IMG/VR virus record: IMGVR_UViG_3300007541_000039
Location: 1-44,300 of that record
Length of the DNA stretch: 44,300 nucleotides
DNA from: a virus
Reading direction: 5' to 3' (one strand)
The position numbers and the translations under genes were made by a program. Shown here piece after piece: positions 25,013-37,655 of this stretch. The notes below the pieces were generated by a model. The model had not been told where the DNA came from. It worked only from the letters and a program-made list of their open reading frames with translations, and made no database searches. The stretch's first letter is position 1; every line of letters begins with the position of its first letter.

Positions 25013-25697
25013 TAACTGCCTCTACTACTGAAGGGAAATGTGTTTCAATAACTTTCCAGCATTTTTCTGCTATCCTCATGTGTTCTTTTTGTGTGCCGTT
25101 TGCCATACGCAACTGACAATAATGAACCCAAGAACGCAATGTGCCTGCCATGTAAAGGGTAGTTTCTGTATTACCCTCAGGTAGTACTGCGCGTGCTTGT
25201 TCCTTAGCGATACCTTGCTTCAATGCCCACTTGTAATTCTTTTCAGCAAGATTAATTACTTCTCGTTGCCTCATATTCCATTCTTCGTAGAGTCGTTCTT
25301 GCGGTGTCTTGTTACCACCTTTACCAAAGTCTTCTACATCCTCAAGTGAAATAGAATTTTGTCTGTTTTTAGGATCTTGCAAACGTGCTTCACGACTAAC
25401 AAACGTATCACTTTCAGCGTATCGTTGACTAAATTCCTGGAAACTAAAACTGCGGTGCCTAATAATCTGTCGACTAATGTCTCGAGTAGTCTTAATCTCC
25501 ATTGTTAAAGAAACCATCTCAAATGGGCTCCAATGAGCATTTTTTATTAGGTATTTGAGTAGTTTTGGTGCCGTTTCGGCATTGTTTTGATTAATAGGGT
25601 TACTTACACGGGCAGCGTGTGCTACTAACTGTTCTGCATTATTACAATCGCTCAACGCTGTCGGCATCGACATTGATACCAAAGTTACGCTAGACAT
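25002..25697 (-). CDS. thyX: flavin-dependent thymidylate synthase
   Basis: The ThyX signature RHRSFSFQEFSQRY is present near residue 82, along with HWSPFEM and a C-terminal SWVHYCQLR for substrate binding. 231 residues is the normal size. It methylates dUMP to dTMP using methylene-tetrahydrofolate and NAD(P)H, replacing the T4 td type. I start at the ATG at 25697, after GGAG; TTG at 25700 precedes it. A perfect sigma70 promoter lies about 60 bases upstream inside the primase gene. Confidence 0.92.
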   Translation of the reverse strand: MSSVTLVSMSMPTALSDCNNAEQLVAHAARVSNPINQNNAETAPKLLKYLIKNAHWSPFEMVSLTMEIKTTRDISRQIIRHRSFSFQEFSQRYAESDTFVSREARLQDPKNRQNSISLEDVEDFGKGGNKTPQERLYEEWNMRQREVINLAEKNYKWALKQGIAKEQARAVLPEGNTETTLYMAGTLRSWVHYCQLRMANGTQKEHMRIAEKCWKVIETHFPSVVEAVNEG

Positions 25698-26715
25698 CAA
25701 TTTTTCTCCATGTGTTAAATTTAAATTCGGCTCTTAGGCCACTGTAAGTATTTTGCTCAATTATAGTATGAATTTCAGTTACTGTCAAGCCTGACATAAC
25801 CATATCGTTAATATCTTTTTCTTCAAGTGTTTCAGGCCAGATACAAATTTTTTGTCCGGCGCTTATATACTTATACATTAATTTCGTTATCTCTTTATTT
25901 CTTGGCTGATTATCAAAAATAATTGTGTAATCTTTTAAACCAAGTTCATCGACTCTATTAAATGCCGATCCACTAGCAGCAATAGCATTATCCAAAAACA
26001 AACTATCAATAGGTCCTTCAACCACTTTAACATTTCTTGTTTTGTCTATGTCGTCTAGACCAAAGATAGTGGGAGCGTCCTCATCAATTTTTAGATTAAT
26101 GTATCTCAAAGACTCCCCACGAATACCTCTCATAGCCATGCCTGTTAGTTTACCTTCTGTGTTAATAAAAGGCAGTATTAGGCGAGGTTGTTCAACTGTA
26201 AGAGAAGAGGTGTACTTTGTGTTTAACTGTGCTGCTTTTCTAATATCGTCAAGAAAGTATAATCTGTTCCAAACTTGTTTTGGAATCATTCTCGACTTCA
26301 CATACTCTATGACTTCATGATCTTCAGGCAAAGTATCCAATCTGTCCATTAATTCATCAATAAGAGTTTTAGGACGACATTTAGGTTCCTTAAACTCCAA
26401 GTTAAATTCTGGCTTTTGATTGGCTCTGTTAGAAGGTAATCCTTCTTTGTAGCGTTCTACAACATACTGCTTATGTAGAGTACCATCTAGTGTCTCTAGA
26501 AGTCCCCCAAATGTTTTACCTGCTCCACAATTATGACACTTGTAGAACATATCGTTTTTAACTTTGTACAGGTATCCGCGAGCCTTATTCTTTTTTGTGC
26601 TACTATCGCCACAAATAGGGCATCGGAAATTAAAGAGGTACTGATCCTTTTTCTTGAATCTCTCAAGCCTAAAAGATACCTGATTAATATATTTTAGATC
26701 AATAAACAAAGACAT
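25690..26715 (-). CDS. DNA primase, T4 gp61-like
   Basis: 341 residues, against 342 in T4 gp61. An N-terminal zinc ribbon is formed by Cys32/Cys35 (CPICG) and Cys60/Cys63 (CHNCG). VKVVEGPIDSLFLDNAIAASG near residue 231 is the TOPRIM Glu-G-P-x-D core, followed by YTIIFDNQPRNKE. It makes RNA primers for lagging-strand synthesis with the gp41-type helicase, which is not in this window. The SD (AGG) lies in the stem of a hairpin at 26722-26742, and its promoter begins inside that hairpin. Confidence 0.88.
   Translation of the reverse strand: MSLFIDLKYINQVSFRLERFKKKDQYLFNFRCPICGDSSTKKNKARGYLYKVKNDMFYKCHNCGAGKTFGGLLETLDGTLHKQYVVERYKEGLPSNRANQKPEFNLEFKEPKCRPKTLIDELMDRLDTLPEDHEVIEYVKSRMIPKQVWNRLYFLDDIRKAAQLNTKYTSSLTVEQPRLILPFINTEGKLTGMAMRGIRGESLRYINLKIDEDAPTIFGLDDIDKTRNVKVVEGPIDSLFLDNAIAASGSAFNRVDELGLKDYTIIFDNQPRNKEITKLMYKYISAGQKICIWPETLEEKDINDMVMSGLTVTEIHTIIEQNTYSGLRAEFKFNTWRKIDV
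25760..25788 (-). promoter_or_regulatory. sigma70 promoter for thyX, perfect consensus
   Basis: CTTGACA with TTGACA at 25788-25783, 17-base spacer, TATAAT at 25765-25760, inside the 3' end of the primase gene. Expected start near 25753, about 56 bases before the thyX ATG. Confidence 0.7.
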
Positions 26716-26721
26716 AAAAAA

Positions 26722-26742
26722 ACCTATACGATTAGTATAGGT
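26722..26742 (-). promoter_or_regulatory. hairpin hiding the primase ribosome-binding site
   Basis: ACCTATAC and GTATAGGT pair perfectly over 8 bases with a 5-base loop, followed on the minus strand by six T and then the primase ATG. The structure resembles a rho-independent terminator and contains the AGG of the Shine-Dalgarno site in its 3' arm. Confidence 0.65.
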
Positions 26743-26745
26743 GCT

Positions 26746-26774
26746 ATTGTAACAGAGTGTTATCTATTTGTCAA
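26746..26774 (-). promoter_or_regulatory. sigma70 promoter for primase
   Basis: TTGACA (26774-26769), 17-base spacer, TACAAT (26751-26746). The expected start near 26739 falls in the 5' arm of the hairpin at 26722-26742, so RNA from this promoter cannot form the full stem. Confidence 0.75.
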
Positions 26775-27238
26775 GAAGAAATGTGGAGAAATTCTACAAT
26801 AATTGGTAGGGCAAAACCAGTAATGACTACTGCACCAACTACAATCCAACGCCATTTTTCTAATGAGGTTATGCGTTGATCTTGCTCAGACATTCTACCA
26901 GACACATCCATTTTAAGAGACTCAATACTAGCCAAGACTTTCTCCATATCGACTTGGTTTTGTTTCGTAATTTCTCTCTGTGCTGTTGTTAACCTAGAGT
27001 GTAACTCTTTAATGTCGGCCTGGTGCTCTTTTCTATGCATCTCTATTTGTTCTTTTAGCTCGTCTGCGTAATCTTCTTGGTTATTAAGTCTTTCATCGTG
27101 TACAGCTAACATCTGACCGATATTATTACACACTTCTGTAATTTTGTCAAGAGCAGTTTCTAATTTAAGAAAAAGCTGGCCCATCTGATTTACTTCGTTC
27201 TTGACTAACGCGATCTCAGTTTCTGTACTATTTGCCAT
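26771..27238 (-). CDS. coiled-coil protein with C-terminal membrane anchor
   Basis: 155 residues. Residues 10-125 are almost continuously helical with heptad spacing and many charged residues (ERLNNQEDYADELKEQIEMH), then WRWIVVGAVVITGFALPIIVEFL forms one membrane segment near the C-terminus. Such tail-anchored coiled coils occur in phage structural regions. No named family. It lies at the end of the virion-like operon that begins at 30598 and overlaps the upstream gene by 11 bases. Confidence 0.6.
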   Translation of the reverse strand: MANSTETEIALVKNEVNQMGQLFLKLETALDKITEVCNNIGQMLAVHDERLNNQEDYADELKEQIEMHRKEHQADIKELHSRLTTAQREITKQNQVDMEKVLASIESLKMDVSGRMSEQDQRITSLEKWRWIVVGAVVITGFALPIIVEFLHISS

Positions 27239-28855: not shown

Positions 28856-30598
28856 CTATCTATTTTGTTTTAAAATTTGGTTCAATATTGAAAAGGCTTC
28901 GTAACGATTGACACCAATTGCTGTTTCACTAAGTTCGCCCTTAATGATATCTTTTAGCAAATCGATTTCTTCTTTCTTAACAGGAGCCATGCCCTTTTGT
29001 GCTCCAGGACGGCTCATATCTCTTTTAGCAGCTCTTTCTGCATCACGCTCTGCCTGTGCTTCCTTACGTTTACGGACTTTGATTGCTATTTGTCTAATCA
29101 TTTCCAAACGTTTTGCTTTTTGTTCAGGTGTCATTTCTTCATTTTGCTGTGAATCTGAAGATGACATAACTTTTTTAGCACCTGCTTTTGCAACTTGGCC
29201 GGCTGCAAATTGTCCTGTAGTACCCATGCCAGCTTTTCTTGCAGCACCTGCTCCAAGTGCTCTAGCAGCGGCTGCTACTAGTGGGTTTTCAATTAAGTCA
29301 CTTGCATCGATATCTTCTAAAGATTCGTTTGCTTGTCTTAAAGCCTTTTGAGCAGCTGGATGATTTGAAAGTCCTTTCTTGATCTTTTCCATTTTCTTAG
29401 CAGCGCCGGTGTAGTCTCCACCTTTGTGTCTAGGATCGTTAGCAATACCTCTAGCCATTCTAATTTGCTTGGCAGTGATGTATTCTAGTAGCTCTTCTTC
29501 GTTGAAGTCGTATTCTACACTATTTTTCATAAGATGAGAACGTGCTACTGAACTACCAATGTTTCCTTTGACTCTGCCGCCGTTACCATCAGGAAAGCCT
29601 CTTAGCTTAACTCTGTTTTTAGCAGCTTTTGCTTCTTTGTCAGAAATTCTAAAACCGCCTGTATCATGAGACTCTTTGTCTTTAGCCATCTTGCCTTCTT
29701 CGTCAAGATCGACTTCTTCTTTTTTCAGTTTAAACCCTGTTTTTTTCTGGAGGTTTTTATAATCAACCTTACCGTCCTTTTTATTTTTAGGATCGTTTCT
29801 ATAACCTCTAACTATATCTGCTGCCGAACGGCGTAGTGCAGATGTATGGGGGTGTGGTTTTGAACCAGGCTTATCTTTTTCTGTAGGGTGAGTACCAAAA
29901 GTATCCTTAACTCTAACAGCCTCGTCAGCTTGCTCAACTTCTTCTTTAGCCATCGCTTTCTTGATAGCTTTATCTCTTGATCCGAAGTACTCTTGTTTTT
30001 TCGTCTCAATTTTGCCATCGCCGTCATGGTCCTTCTTGGCCATCTTTTCGTCGATACAGGCAAAAAATTCTTTCTTCTTAGACTCTGGTAAGTCTCTAAT
30101 AGTAGAGACACCAAATTCTTCAAGAGCTTCATTAAACTTATCTTGATATAATTTATTTAAATTTGTAATATCAAGTGTTTCCTGTTGCTCTTCTTTTTCT
30201 TTTTCTTTACGGAGAGATTTTGCGAACATTTTCATTTTATCTTTTTTAGCCATTTTGCCTAGTTTTTTGGCTTTTACTTCGTCCTTCATTCTCCCCTCAT
30301 CGCCGTCGACAACTTCGACGCCGTCAACCATTTTTTCGTCGAGTTGACTCACAATATGCTCCTCTGTTTGATATCTATTTCTTTGAGTATTTTGCTTGGC
30401 GCGGTTAAAAACAGTATCGTCTCCGAATACAATAAACATAAGTTCATCCATGAACTTTTTAATGATTTCTCTTTCATTAGGAAGTAGCTGAGAACCCATT
30501 TGTACTCGTGCAATAGCTCTTTTTAAAATCGGAAGATTTTGTGCAGGCATCAATCCTTGACGCACTAACATGTCTAATCTTCTACCTTGGTCTGCCAT
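28856..30598 (-). CDS. 580-residue lysine-rich virion-region protein
   Basis: Not recognised as a named T4 protein. The first ~90 residues (RRLDMLVRQGLMPAQNL ... LPNEREIIKKFMDELMFIVF) look folded. A long stretch rich in Lys, Glu and Asp follows (residues 110-350: GKMAKKDKMKMFAKSLRKEK), including KKDHDGDGKIETKK, which resembles an EF-hand-like calcium loop. The C-terminal part has an Ala/Gly-rich segment (PLVAAAARALGAGAARK). First gene behind a TATAAATA late promoter, so a late, probably head or scaffold protein. Confidence 0.55.
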   Translation of the reverse strand: MADQGRRLDMLVRQGLMPAQNLPILKRAIARVQMGSQLLPNEREIIKKFMDELMFIVFGDDTVFNRAKQNTQRNRYQTEEHIVSQLDEKMVDGVEVVDGDEGRMKDEVKAKKLGKMAKKDKMKMFAKSLRKEKEKEEQQETLDITNLNKLYQDKFNEALEEFGVSTIRDLPESKKKEFFACIDEKMAKKDHDGDGKIETKKQEYFGSRDKAIKKAMAKEEVEQADEAVRVKDTFGTHPTEKDKPGSKPHPHTSALRRSAADIVRGYRNDPKNKKDGKVDYKNLQKKTGFKLKKEEVDLDEEGKMAKDKESHDTGGFRISDKEAKAAKNRVKLRGFPDGNGGRVKGNIGSSVARSHLMKNSVEYDFNEEELLEYITAKQIRMARGIANDPRHKGGDYTGAAKKMEKIKKGLSNHPAAQKALRQANESLEDIDASDLIENPLVAAAARALGAGAARKAGMGTTGQFAAGQVAKAGAKKVMSSSDSQQNEEMTPEQKAKRLEMIRQIAIKVRKRKEAQAERDAERAAKRDMSRPGAQKGMAPVKKEEIDLLKDIIKGELSETAIGVNRYEAFSILNQILKQNR

Positions 30599-30627: not shown

Positions 30628-30635
30628 TATTTATA
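30628..30635 (-). promoter_or_regulatory. T4-type late promoter
   Basis: Exact TATAAATA on the minus strand between the cobalamin radical SAM gene and the 580-residue gene, about 30 bases before the ATG at 30598. Its place before a run of virion-like genes fits late expression. Confidence 0.75.
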
Positions 30636-32193
30636 AGATCTTGAACTTCTTCTCTATGTATTCTTCGATAAATTTTGAATTAAATTCAGTAGTATGACCA
30701 AGTTCCAACTGTGGTTTTTTCATATCTTCCCAAGTGTATTTTGGATTAACTAGCCAATTATGAAAAGAATGTACTGCTGGACCAGAGTGTTTCATATTCG
30801 GAGAAAACCACTCTTCTGTTAAAAATTTAAGAATTCGGTATAAATTCATGTCACCGTTTTTCCAATTCATAAACGTCATACCTCTGATTCCTCCGTATTT
30901 GCGTTCGTAACCCTCAGTTTCTGCTTGACAGATATGTTCGTAGATATTTTTATACATTGTATTCCATTTATGAGCTTTTATTCCTATACCCTCTGGATCT
31001 GATTCCTTCATAGTAGTCAAGAAATAACCCCATTTTTCAGGATCTTTAGAAAACTCACTATCTTCATCATATGGTCTGTTGTTAGGAGAAATCCATAAAG
31101 GATTAATGGTTGCTGAATTGCCTTTAATCCACCAATTATTAGAGAGCCATTCTAATGTTTGTCTCATTTTATCTTCAGTGTCCCCAGGCAAGCCAGCAAT
31201 TAAGTTGATGTGTCCTCTATAAAATCCTTGTTTATTAAAAAACTCCTCTACTTTAAGAAGGCCTTCTTTTAGCCTTTCGCCGTCCATGCCTTTTCCAATT
31301 ACTCTAGCGGCTTGTTGGTTAAAACTTTCTACACCATAGAAGTGAGAATCAAATCCTAAATCACTAATCATTTGCCAATCATCTGGGCGGGCAACCAATA
31401 AGTCTCCTCTAGCATATCCCCCAAAATGTGGGCGGAATGGTAATTTAGTTACAACTCTAGCATATCTTTCTAATTTTTCGTGATAGTCGTTAACAGTTTC
31501 ATCAGAAAAAGTATATGTTGTGGTTCCCCATTTTTCATAATTTCTCAATAACTCATCATATAAATTATCTTCACTCCTACTGTGATCACCTTTTATGTTT
31601 CTATGTAAAAGAGTGCAAAACCCGCAATTAAAAATACAGCCCCTACCTAACTCAACTGTAAGACACTCTTGAGGCTGAATAAAATCTCTTTCCTCGTAAT
31701 CTATTGTAAAGTCTTTTAATCTTGTAGCGTCGTAATCATGTGTTGCATCTATGTAATTGTATGTTCCATGTCGAGAGTATTTTAAATCAGTACTAATACT
31801 TGTAAGATGTCTAACAAGAGCAGATATTCCAAGTTCACCGTAACCATGTATTAACCAATCAATAGGAAGACTCGTACAGTTATAATAAGATTGTGTACCT
31901 CCAACGATAGCAATTTTGGGATATTTTTCTTTTACCCAGTTTAAAATAGTCGTCATGTTATCAAAGTGCATATCAAACGTAGCACTTACACCCAAAAAGA
32001 CAGTGTCAGATTTTAAAATTGCAGTTAAATAATCTTTGAGTTTTTCAACAGGCCAATTGACGGCGAAGTCTATAACTTCAACGTCCATGTTGTTTTCTTT
32101 TCTGAGATGGGTGGCGATTCTATGGGCGCCGGGTGCTCTTTTTACAGAGATTGGAGTAAAGTCTATTACAGACCCAAGAATAACAGCATGCAT
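30631..32193 (-). CDS. B12-binding-domain radical SAM enzyme
   Basis: I start at 32193 (MHAVILGSVIDFTP), which has AGGATGGG seven bases upstream. The first ~135 residues have a Rossmann-like layout of cobalamin-binding domains (DTVFLGVSATFDMH, KIAIVGGTQSYYN, WLIHGYGELGISAL), although DxHxxG is not evident. GRGCIFNCGFC then gives the radical SAM Cys186/190/193, with FYGVESFNQQAARVIGKG as a later strand. This family does methylations, ring changes or thioether chemistry. It lies among virion-like genes, away from the other two radical SAM genes. Substrate unknown. Confidence 0.82.
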   Translation of the reverse strand: MHAVILGSVIDFTPISVKRAPGAHRIATHLRKENNMDVEVIDFAVNWPVEKLKDYLTAILKSDTVFLGVSATFDMHFDNMTTILNWVKEKYPKIAIVGGTQSYYNCTSLPIDWLIHGYGELGISALVRHLTSISTDLKYSRHGTYNYIDATHDYDATRLKDFTIDYEERDFIQPQECLTVELGRGCIFNCGFCTLLHRNIKGDHSRSEDNLYDELLRNYEKWGTTTYTFSDETVNDYHEKLERYARVVTKLPFRPHFGGYARGDLLVARPDDWQMISDLGFDSHFYGVESFNQQAARVIGKGMDGERLKEGLLKVEEFFNKQGFYRGHINLIAGLPGDTEDKMRQTLEWLSNNWWIKGNSATINPLWISPNNRPYDEDSEFSKDPEKWGYFLTTMKESDPEGIGIKAHKWNTMYKNIYEHICQAETEGYERKYGGIRGMTFMNWKNGDMNLYRILKFLTEEWFSPNMKHSGPAVHSFHNWLVNPKYTWEDMKKPQLELGHTTEFNSKFIEEYIEKKFKIL

Positions 32194-32239
32194 ATTATGA
32201 CCCATCCTATAACTAATAAAGTTTTATCTTCAGTTTTTT

Positions 32240-34162
32240 TCACTTTTTAATTTTAAATTTAGTCGACTTTTGCTTCTTTGCTATTGGTTTAGCTGGCTTA
32301 TAAGTTTTAGATTTAGATGCTTTCTTCTTGTTGCGGCCTTTCATGCGAGCAATTTCCATTTTACGCATATTGGGTAGCATCTTAACAGATAAGCGTTGTA
32401 CAAGAGGAGCAAAACGTGCAACTAGTTTTTCAAATCTAGCCTTTTCGGCTGGGGGCATTAGCTTCTTATCTCTACCTCTGAGTAGACGCTTATAAACCAT
32501 ACCTCTTGCTCCACGAACAGCTCTTCTTTTTAATCTGTCAGGTGAAGAACCTCGTCTAAGTGCAATTTGTCTTGCTACTTTTAATTTTTGTCTGTTACGT
32601 CTAGCAGCAAAACGTCTTTTTAATCTACCTTGTGTTGATAGTTCCTCATCAAGTTCTTCGTCCCACTCTTCTGGTTCAAACTCCTCGTCGTCAAGATCTA
32701 AGTCAACTGAAAAATCATCAAACTCTGAATAATACTCTAGTTGATCATATGTAATATTTTCTGCTTCATTTTCTAAGTCTGCGATATCTTCTTGGGTGAG
32801 GAAGTAATCGGCCATTTCTTCGTTTTCTTGCTTGTATTCGTGTTTAGAGTTATCTTTTTGTACGTCTATTTTTACTTCCTCATTTTCTTTTATCTCAATC
32901 GGAGTATCAATAGGTTTAATCATCTCAGTCTTTTTAGCTTTTTGTTCGCCAGGTGTTAACTTCTTAAAATATTCTGTTCCCTGATCTGTACCCCACTCCA
33001 TGCCTCCAGGTGTAGGATCGTACTCAGCATCTTCTTTAAGTTTGTCTAAAATCTTTTGTCTAATATTAGGCTTCAAGTCTTTAAAATGAAATAAGTTTAC
33101 GCTTTTCTCAGTGTGCTTCTCACCTGTCATTACTTGACCGTCGTGTGCGTGTTGTGGACCTTTCCACTCTTTACCGTCTTGTGTATAGTGTCCGTCTGTT
33201 TTCCAAGAATGCTCTTTGCCTTCGTTATGATGCATGTTTAACTTCCAGTGTGCTAACTTCTTTGCACCCGGGCTGGAATTAGGATTGGATCTAATCTTTT
33301 TAAGTTCTGTTTTTGTAGCGTCTTTGGGTACACCGTGTCTGTTAATCTCACCAAGTGACTCTTTCTTTCTTTTAGATGCGAGATATGCGGCAACTGCCAT
33401 ACTTCTACGTTTAAACTTACCTTTACCTTTAAATTGAGGTGCGTCAGACTTTTTAAAATCACTAATGTAATCGCCGATACTGTTTTTGTCCGCGTCTAGT
33501 TTCTCTCTAATGTTTCTCTTTTTCATCTGACTATTTATCCATTCTCGAGCGTGGTGATTATTAGGGGGACGTCTTACCCATGCCCCGATAGTTCTATAGG
33601 CAGACATTACTCCGCCTTGTATATTACTGTTTTCACTGTTATCTACAATTATAAAGTGTTGTCCAAACAAGTTCTGAAATTTACCAATGTTATTCTGCAC
33701 ATCACTCCACATTTTAGACACCATGCCGGTGGGAAGTGTTCTTGTGCGAGCTTTGTTTCTTGCAAGTGCAGTATTTTTATCTGTATTGACAAATATCATT
33801 GCACAATCGTAACCTAAATGCTGAAGATGTGCCTTCATTGTTTGTATTTTGCTATAGTCTTTACCTGTTCCGTCAATAACTAAACCAAGCCTGCCGTTAA
33901 TGTAACTATCCATTAATCTTTCTGTGGTAGATTTTGCTCTGGCTCTTATAAGCTGTCCTTTTTCTGACTTTATGTTGTCTGGCGTAGGAGCCATGCCATG
34001 TTTAGCTAAGGCATACTCATACATTCTATCAGGATTAACTATTTTTAGCCCAAATGATGTTAAAGCAGTTTGTCCAACCACAAAGGATTTACCGCTTCCA
34101 GGCCCACCGGCTAGGAATACGGCTTTAAAAATACCAGGATCTCTAATTCCTTCAGTTAGCAT
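32240..34162 (-). CDS. P-loop kinase (zeta-toxin/PNK-like) fused to a basic C-terminal part
   Basis: 640 residues. FKAVFLAGGPGSGKSFVV (residues 11-28) is Walker A, and LVIDGTGKDYSKI, IFVNTDKNTALARNKARTR and IIVDNSEN match the zeta-toxin / polynucleotide-kinase-like fold. The middle third is charged and contains a very acidic stretch (LDLDDEEFEPEEWDEELDEE). The last ~150 residues are extremely basic (KRRFAARRNRQKLKVARQ, KKKASKSKTYKPAKPIAKK). I recall this architecture in marine T4-like phages. The role may be a virion-associated or nucleic-acid-bound kinase. Confidence 0.65.
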   Translation of the reverse strand: MLTEGIRDPGIFKAVFLAGGPGSGKSFVVGQTALTSFGLKIVNPDRMYEYALAKHGMAPTPDNIKSEKGQLIRARAKSTTERLMDSYINGRLGLVIDGTGKDYSKIQTMKAHLQHLGYDCAMIFVNTDKNTALARNKARTRTLPTGMVSKMWSDVQNNIGKFQNLFGQHFIIVDNSENSNIQGGVMSAYRTIGAWVRRPPNNHHAREWINSQMKKRNIREKLDADKNSIGDYISDFKKSDAPQFKGKGKFKRRSMAVAAYLASKRKKESLGEINRHGVPKDATKTELKKIRSNPNSSPGAKKLAHWKLNMHHNEGKEHSWKTDGHYTQDGKEWKGPQHAHDGQVMTGEKHTEKSVNLFHFKDLKPNIRQKILDKLKEDAEYDPTPGGMEWGTDQGTEYFKKLTPGEQKAKKTEMIKPIDTPIEIKENEEVKIDVQKDNSKHEYKQENEEMADYFLTQEDIADLENEAENITYDQLEYYSEFDDFSVDLDLDDEEFEPEEWDEELDEELSTQGRLKRRFAARRNRQKLKVARQIALRRGSSPDRLKRRAVRGARGMVYKRLLRGRDKKLMPPAEKARFEKLVARFAPLVQRLSVKMLPNMRKMEIARMKGRNKKKASKSKTYKPAKPIAKKQKSTKFKIKK

Positions 34163-37581: not shown

Positions 37582-37614
37582 TATTTCTACTCTCTCTTAA
37601 CAATTTATATTGTT

Positions 37615-37643
37615 ATTATAGCACATTTCATGCTAAATGTCAA
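37615..37643 (-). promoter_or_regulatory. sigma70 promoter, perfect consensus
   Basis: CTTGACA with TTGACA at 37643-37638, 17-base spacer, TATAAT at 37620-37615. Drives the DUF6267-type gene with a leader of about 27 bases. The weak palindrome AACAAT-ttat-ATTGTT (37599-37614) lies at the expected start. Confidence 0.8.
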
Positions 37644-37647
37644 GCAG

Positions 37648-37655
37648 TATTTATA
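37648..37655 (-). promoter_or_regulatory. T4-type late promoter
   Basis: TATAAATA on the minus strand, overlapping the stop of the upstream glycosyltransferase gene and five bases upstream of the -35 box of the sigma70 promoter, so the gene at 37581 may be read both early and late. Confidence 0.5.

Follow-up and report, generated by a model that had tools for sequence, protein, structure and literature searches.

A hairpin across the predicted transcription start of a phage primase gene as a candidate insulator against read-through

For the transposase of IS10/Tn10, RNA from an outside promoter folds and hides the ribosome-binding site, whereas RNA that the transposase gene's own sigma70 promoter begins within the inverted repeat can be translated. 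T4-like phages reportedly carry PeSLs, composite motifs of an early promoter and a stem-loop that Arbiol in 2010 and Comeau in 2014 (both cited in PMC4503421) are reported to have described as cassettes mediating gene shuffling. In T4 itself, RNA that reads through into gene e (also soc, 49 and I-TevI) folds and hides the Shine–Dalgarno (SD) sequence; a further promoter is located in the 5′ strand of the fold, and the RNA made from it lacks this strand and is translated (PMC3014915). We analysed a 44,300-nucleotide stretch of viral DNA (the window; IMG/VR record IMGVR_UViG_3300007541_000039, positions 1 to 44,300), in which the leader of a primase gene has the two parts of a PeSL-type motif, an early promoter and an intergenic stem-loop, within the same 60 bases.

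A hairpin between promoter and start codon

Along the minus strand, TTGACA-17-TACAAT is followed by a perfect stem of 8 bp closing a loop of 5 bases, then by six T and the primase ATG. The features are as follows.

25690..26715, minus strand: DNA primase, T4 gp61 family, 341 aa (phrog_47, E 1.8e-76)
26715–26713, minus strand: primase ATG
26716..26721, minus strand: T6 run after the stem, terminator-like (scan; T7 counting the last stem base)
26722..26742, minus strand: hairpin ACCTATAC-TAATC-GTATAGGT, 8 bp, −8.8 kcal/mol (scan and folding; pairing kept in relatives)
26738..26740, minus strand: predicted transcription start, 6–8 nt past the −10 and within the 5′ arm (from the sigma70 spacing rule)
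26746..26751, minus strand: −10 element TACAAT with TG upstream, an extended −10 (scan; TATAAT or a close variant in relatives)
26769..26774, minus strand: −35 element TTGACA (sequence and scan; retained in near relatives)
26771..27238, minus strand: preceding co-directional gene, coiled coil (DUF7201), 155 aa (homologous position in relatives)
30628..30635, minus strand: T4-type late promoter motif TATAAATA, 3.9 kb upstream of the primase and before ORF 28856–30598

The TTGACA hexamer overlaps the stop codon of the preceding gene, 17 nt separate it from TACAAT, and AGC separates TACAAT from the 5′ arm, so that the −10 ends 3 nt before the stem. The 5′ arm (ACCTATAC) spans 26742–26735 and the 3′ arm (GTATAGGT) 26729–26722, with TAATC as the loop; the AGG in the 3′ arm, 7 nt ahead of the ATG, is all that the primase has as an SD. 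An initial annotation, made from the sequence alone, had described this stem, loop and T run reaching up to the ATG with an AGG inside the stem, and had placed the start of RNA from a local TTGACA/TACAAT promoter within the 5′ arm. The minus-strand sequence confirms the anatomy and the promoter, and the predicted +1 (26740–26738) does fall inside the 5′ arm.

Folding of the stem-loop gives −8.8 kcal/mol, and the 33-mer has z −4.3 relative to shuffles of the same letters. On either strand of the window, no other perfect stem of 8 bp or more has a loop of 3–8 and six or more T in the next seven positions, and 12 dinucleotide shuffles of the window contained 0 stems of at least 8 bp with at least six T in seven. 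It has the make-up of an intrinsic terminator, namely a G+C-containing stem (three G–C pairs among the 8 bp) with T6 immediately after it. An Rfam 15 scan of the window gave 0 matches at the gathering score. The promoter scores 11/12 against a sigma70-type consensus, and such a score alone was not rare in the scan.

The primase is 45% identical to that of Pelagibacter phage Mosig. The N-terminal part of phrog_451 (461 aa) matches the coiled-coil gene at 26771–27238 and its remainder matches the primase, which suggests that the two genes may be fused in some phages.

Leaders of related primases

Scans of viral contigs gathered 281 primase loci, window included, which gave 158 distinct upstream regions and 90 clusters at 75% protein identity. 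A sigma70-type promoter (at least 9/12, at most 46 nt from the start) is kept in 86/90 primase clusters compared with 88/805 other ORFs. Two main layouts were found among the 90 clusters: a hairpin across the predicted start site (35 clusters, or 43 under a looser rule) and a leaderless or near-leaderless start; 15–22 clusters show neither. Mapping the hairpin label onto a tree of all 90 clusters takes 19 changes, of which starred branches force at least 11; the hairpin layout has therefore been gained or lost repeatedly.

Of 99 primase leaders, 66% have a start-spanning hairpin of −4 kcal/mol or lower; among 91 control promoters taken from the same contigs the share is 6.6%. Compared with shuffles of their own dinucleotides, 45/100 leaders reached p < 0.05 and 27/100 p < 0.01, although the rows are mutually related and these p-values hence overstate their independence. 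We used a swap test in place of pair counting on a MAFFT alignment; MAFFT misplaces the arms of GGCC-type leaders because loop and arm lengths differ. The swap test is alignment-free, takes one row per cluster and does not select for hairpins. Native 5′ and 3′ halves paired at a mean of −5.2 kcal/mol, compared with −2.2 kcal/mol when halves were exchanged between clusters, and the best of 2000 permutations reached −3.1 to −3.3 kcal/mol in each of five runs. The arms themselves vary among lineages, from ACCTATAC/GTATAGGT to GCACATAGA/TCTACGTGC (one A–C mismatch), AAGGCCTC/GAGGCCTT, AGACTCC/GGAGTCT, AGGCTC/GAGCCT and AGCCTAC/GTAGGCT. Relatives thus preserve the layout, and pairing is kept while the arm sequences change. 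A conserved RNA motif or riboswitch was rejected, pairing and not arm sequence being conserved.

The swap test, the control promoters and the repeated occurrence over the tree also speak to chance. Promoter-like matches around the primase start are no commoner than in shuffles, as would be expected of a functionless palindrome in AT-rich DNA beside a promoter-like match, but these three results make that explanation hardly credible. Another possibility is that the palindrome acts as DNA, as the operator for a dimeric repressor of the primase promoter that covers +1. The dyad is centred just downstream of the −10, a usual place for an operator, and its symmetry is retained in relatives. Yet a second copy of the dyad is absent from the window and its record, arm sequences are unrelated between clusters, and the SD or T run lies on the 3′ side only. 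Moreover, the non-Watson–Crick pairs include more G–U than A–C (16:7, or 11:3 when each cluster contributes a single row). Such a bias is not expected of a DNA palindrome and offers modest evidence for pairing in RNA. We consider an operator very improbable.

The position of the hairpin relative to the promoter points to the same constraint in many leaders. In 63/63 rows the 5′ arm begins −6 to +4 nt relative to the end of the −10; because the hairpin search required the arm to start before +1, this position alone is not independent evidence, and the independent geometric support is that control promoters seldom have start-spanning hairpins. An RNA begun 6–8 nt past the −10 lacks the outer part of the 5′ arm. 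Individual lineages arrive at this arrangement in different ways. In one (L265) the −10 forms part of the SD-pairing 5′ arm, in a stem of ~15 bp holding GGAGGA; a second (L235) likewise has its −10 within the 5′ arm opposite the SD; and in two others (L213 and L097) the −10 is located in the hairpin loop. These look like repeated, differing solutions of one constraint; no other argument for a start site placed inside the hairpin by design would be as strong. A further possibility is that the hairpin acts in the primase mRNA, where it would stabilise the 5′ end or bind a translational repressor. Leader hairpins, and the operator hairpin of gene 43, are documented in T4 (PMC3014915). However, the 5′ arm here begins at most 4 nt past the −10 and often inside it, so that a sigma70 start cannot include it, and the arm and loop letters lack the conservation expected of a protein site; we give this explanation very little credence. 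The initial annotation had held that read-through RNA alone would form the full stem. The geometry, the changing yet paired arms and the roughly tenfold frequency over control promoters argue for this claim, and its RNA-level steps are predictions.

In the second main layout, found in 32/90 clusters, the −10 ends 6–10 nt ahead of the start codon, and the RNA should therefore be leaderless or nearly so. None of these 32 clusters has an SD (0/32), compared with 49% of other ORFs, and translation should come solely from the gene's own RNA. Predicted leaderless loci include L022, L059, L095, L178 and L198. When we looked for the hairpin-type leader in cultured phages, Melnitz-2 proved to be of the predicted leaderless type and Mosig nearly so, and the T4-like RB51 was of neither type. 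Stems ending at or near the primase ATG are found in two further phages. In the cultured Sinorhizobium phage phiM19 (L287, upstream of 1495), GATGTCC/GGGCATC abuts the primase ATG and carries AGGG in its 3′ arm; in S-CREM2 (L295, upstream of 1501) a −28 kcal/mol stem ends 3 nt before the ATG; no clear local promoter was seen at either stem.

Termination, occlusion and upstream transcription

The initial annotation left it open whether the stem blocks translation or terminates transcription. Counted strictly, the 41 hairpin clusters divide into 13 with SD letters in the 3′ arm and no T run (for example GGAGTCTAA-ATG), 8 with both, 2 with a T run only and 18 with neither. A T6 no more than 14 nt from the start is seen in 9/41 hairpin primase clusters and in 2/826 other ORFs, which sets the T run apart from ordinary spacer. 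It makes intrinsic termination appear at least as likely as SD occlusion in the window and several related lineages; other lineages pair the SD without T residues. In an 80%-identical lineage (L003), the stem and a T7 run are retained and the AGG is lost.

These observations could be read more simply: the upstream operon would end at a plain intrinsic terminator into which the promoter of the next gene is squeezed, and the SD pairing would be incidental. The T6 directly 3′ of the stem, unique in the window, the enrichment of T runs among hairpin primases and the lineage that has stem and T7 without AGG all favour a plain terminator. Against it, 13 hairpin clusters have SD-pairing stems without a T run, and a terminator has no need to reach the start codon or to overlap the promoter. 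We regard it as unlikely, though deserving of real weight, and predict that the window element both terminates and occludes, perhaps with more of the effect coming from termination.

Folding gives −8.8 kcal/mol for the complete stem and −1.9 kcal/mol for the truncated one. In partition functions, the unpaired probability of the AGG is 0.00 in the long read-through RNA and 0.29–0.40 in the short RNA. The initial annotation had proposed that the short RNA leaves the site free; in silico the freeing appears to be real yet partial.

A co-directional ORF lies upstream of the primase in 61/61 hairpin loci tested, ending a median of 57 nt before the start, and read-through into the primase is therefore expected. 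The T4 late promoter core TATAAATA occurs upstream of primases 25 times in sense and once in antisense orientation. Cyanophage S-WAM2 has an annotated structural gene four genes upstream of its primase and in the same direction. Host-type promoters are counted as early in marine T4-like phages (PMC3037559, PMC9004378). The primase is probably an early-type gene and its co-directional upstream genes are probably late-transcribed. Given the host-type promoter of the primase and the sense-biased late motifs upstream, the element most likely bars late transcription from making primase, shielding an early gene from late read-through, a timing that we infer.

In the window, a PDB search with ORF 28856–30598, which follows the late motif, gave no match; upstream of this gene lie a radical SAM/B12-binding protein (30631–32205) and an AAA/zeta-toxin-like kinase (32240–34162). 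At 37604–37655 on the minus strand, a TATAAATA late motif overlaps a perfect TTGACA-17-TATAAT promoter, and an AACAAT-ATAA-ATTGTT inverted repeat lies directly 3′ of the −10. This site appears to be a tandem early/late promoter and a weak version of the primase-leader layout.

A candidate insulator and its described relatives

From the anatomy of the element, its uniqueness in the window, the conservation of complementary arms, the start-site geometry, the upstream gene and the late-motif bias, we infer a +1 position, termination, a translational block and a timing that would make the element a compact insulator, tying primase expression to its own sigma70-type (early) promoter. We put the probability of this reading at roughly 60%. 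Polymerase arriving from upstream, probably late-transcribed, genes would make the complete stem; at the 8-bp hairpin plus U6, much of the read-through RNA would end immediately ahead of the primase AUG, and any RNA continuing past the T run would have its AGG paired. RNA from the local promoter would start inside the 5′ arm and retain at most 4–5 weak pairs, so that it would neither terminate nor fully hide the AGG and would be translated. Several points count against an insulator: three G–C pairs are weak for a terminator, an SD of AGG only is partly freed, one lineage (L003) lacks the AGG, 18/41 hairpin clusters have neither SD letters nor a T run, and 15–22/90 clusters have neither layout.

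A broader proposal, to which we give slightly less than even odds, is that in a large T4-like branch the primase is translated only from own-promoter RNA, by two interchangeable devices (an SD-hiding and/or terminating hairpin, or an SD-less leaderless start), and is excluded from late units under a general rule of early/late insulation. If so, marine and freshwater T4-like phages with few regulators would insulate an early replication gene using ~60 bases, and two different devices in relatives would serve one simple rule, to translate only the RNA of the gene's own promoter. Read-through coverage in phage transcriptomes would then be no proof of primase synthesis.

The initial annotation had likened the element to T4 gene e. 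The logic holds. In both, the SD is paired in read-through RNA (in the window, a modelled unpaired probability of 0.00 for the AGG), and, as follows for the window from its predicted +1, the 5′ strand of the stem is missing from the short RNA. The direction is probably reversed, with an early primase and late promoter motifs upstream. Gene e is a late gene that a late promoter frees and whose early read-through RNA is blocked (PMC3014915), whereas in the window a sigma70-type promoter would free a replication gene, and the RNA to be blocked is probably late read-through. The inner T4 late promoter (TATAAATA) that defines the gene e group is absent from the primase leader, which has TTGACA-17-TACAAT, with TATAAATA elsewhere in the window, and the element therefore falls outside that group; the T run after the stem also sets it apart from gene e. 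The leaderless primase starts (32 clusters; Melnitz-2) resemble the window in that own-promoter RNA alone should be translated, but they have no hairpin and no SD and would rely on initiation at a 5′-terminal AUG. The window element, its function being a prediction, would work in the manner of gene e and of IS10 transposase protection. IS10/Tn10 differs in being a mobile element that guards against outside promoters; the window element belongs to a replication gene of a phage, set between early and late transcription. PeSLs are likewise reported from T4-like phages and join a host-type early promoter to a terminator-like stem-loop between genes; they are described as gene-shuffling cassettes, whereas elements of the window type are tied to the primase in diverged phages. 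PeSLs may be a closer relative of the window element.
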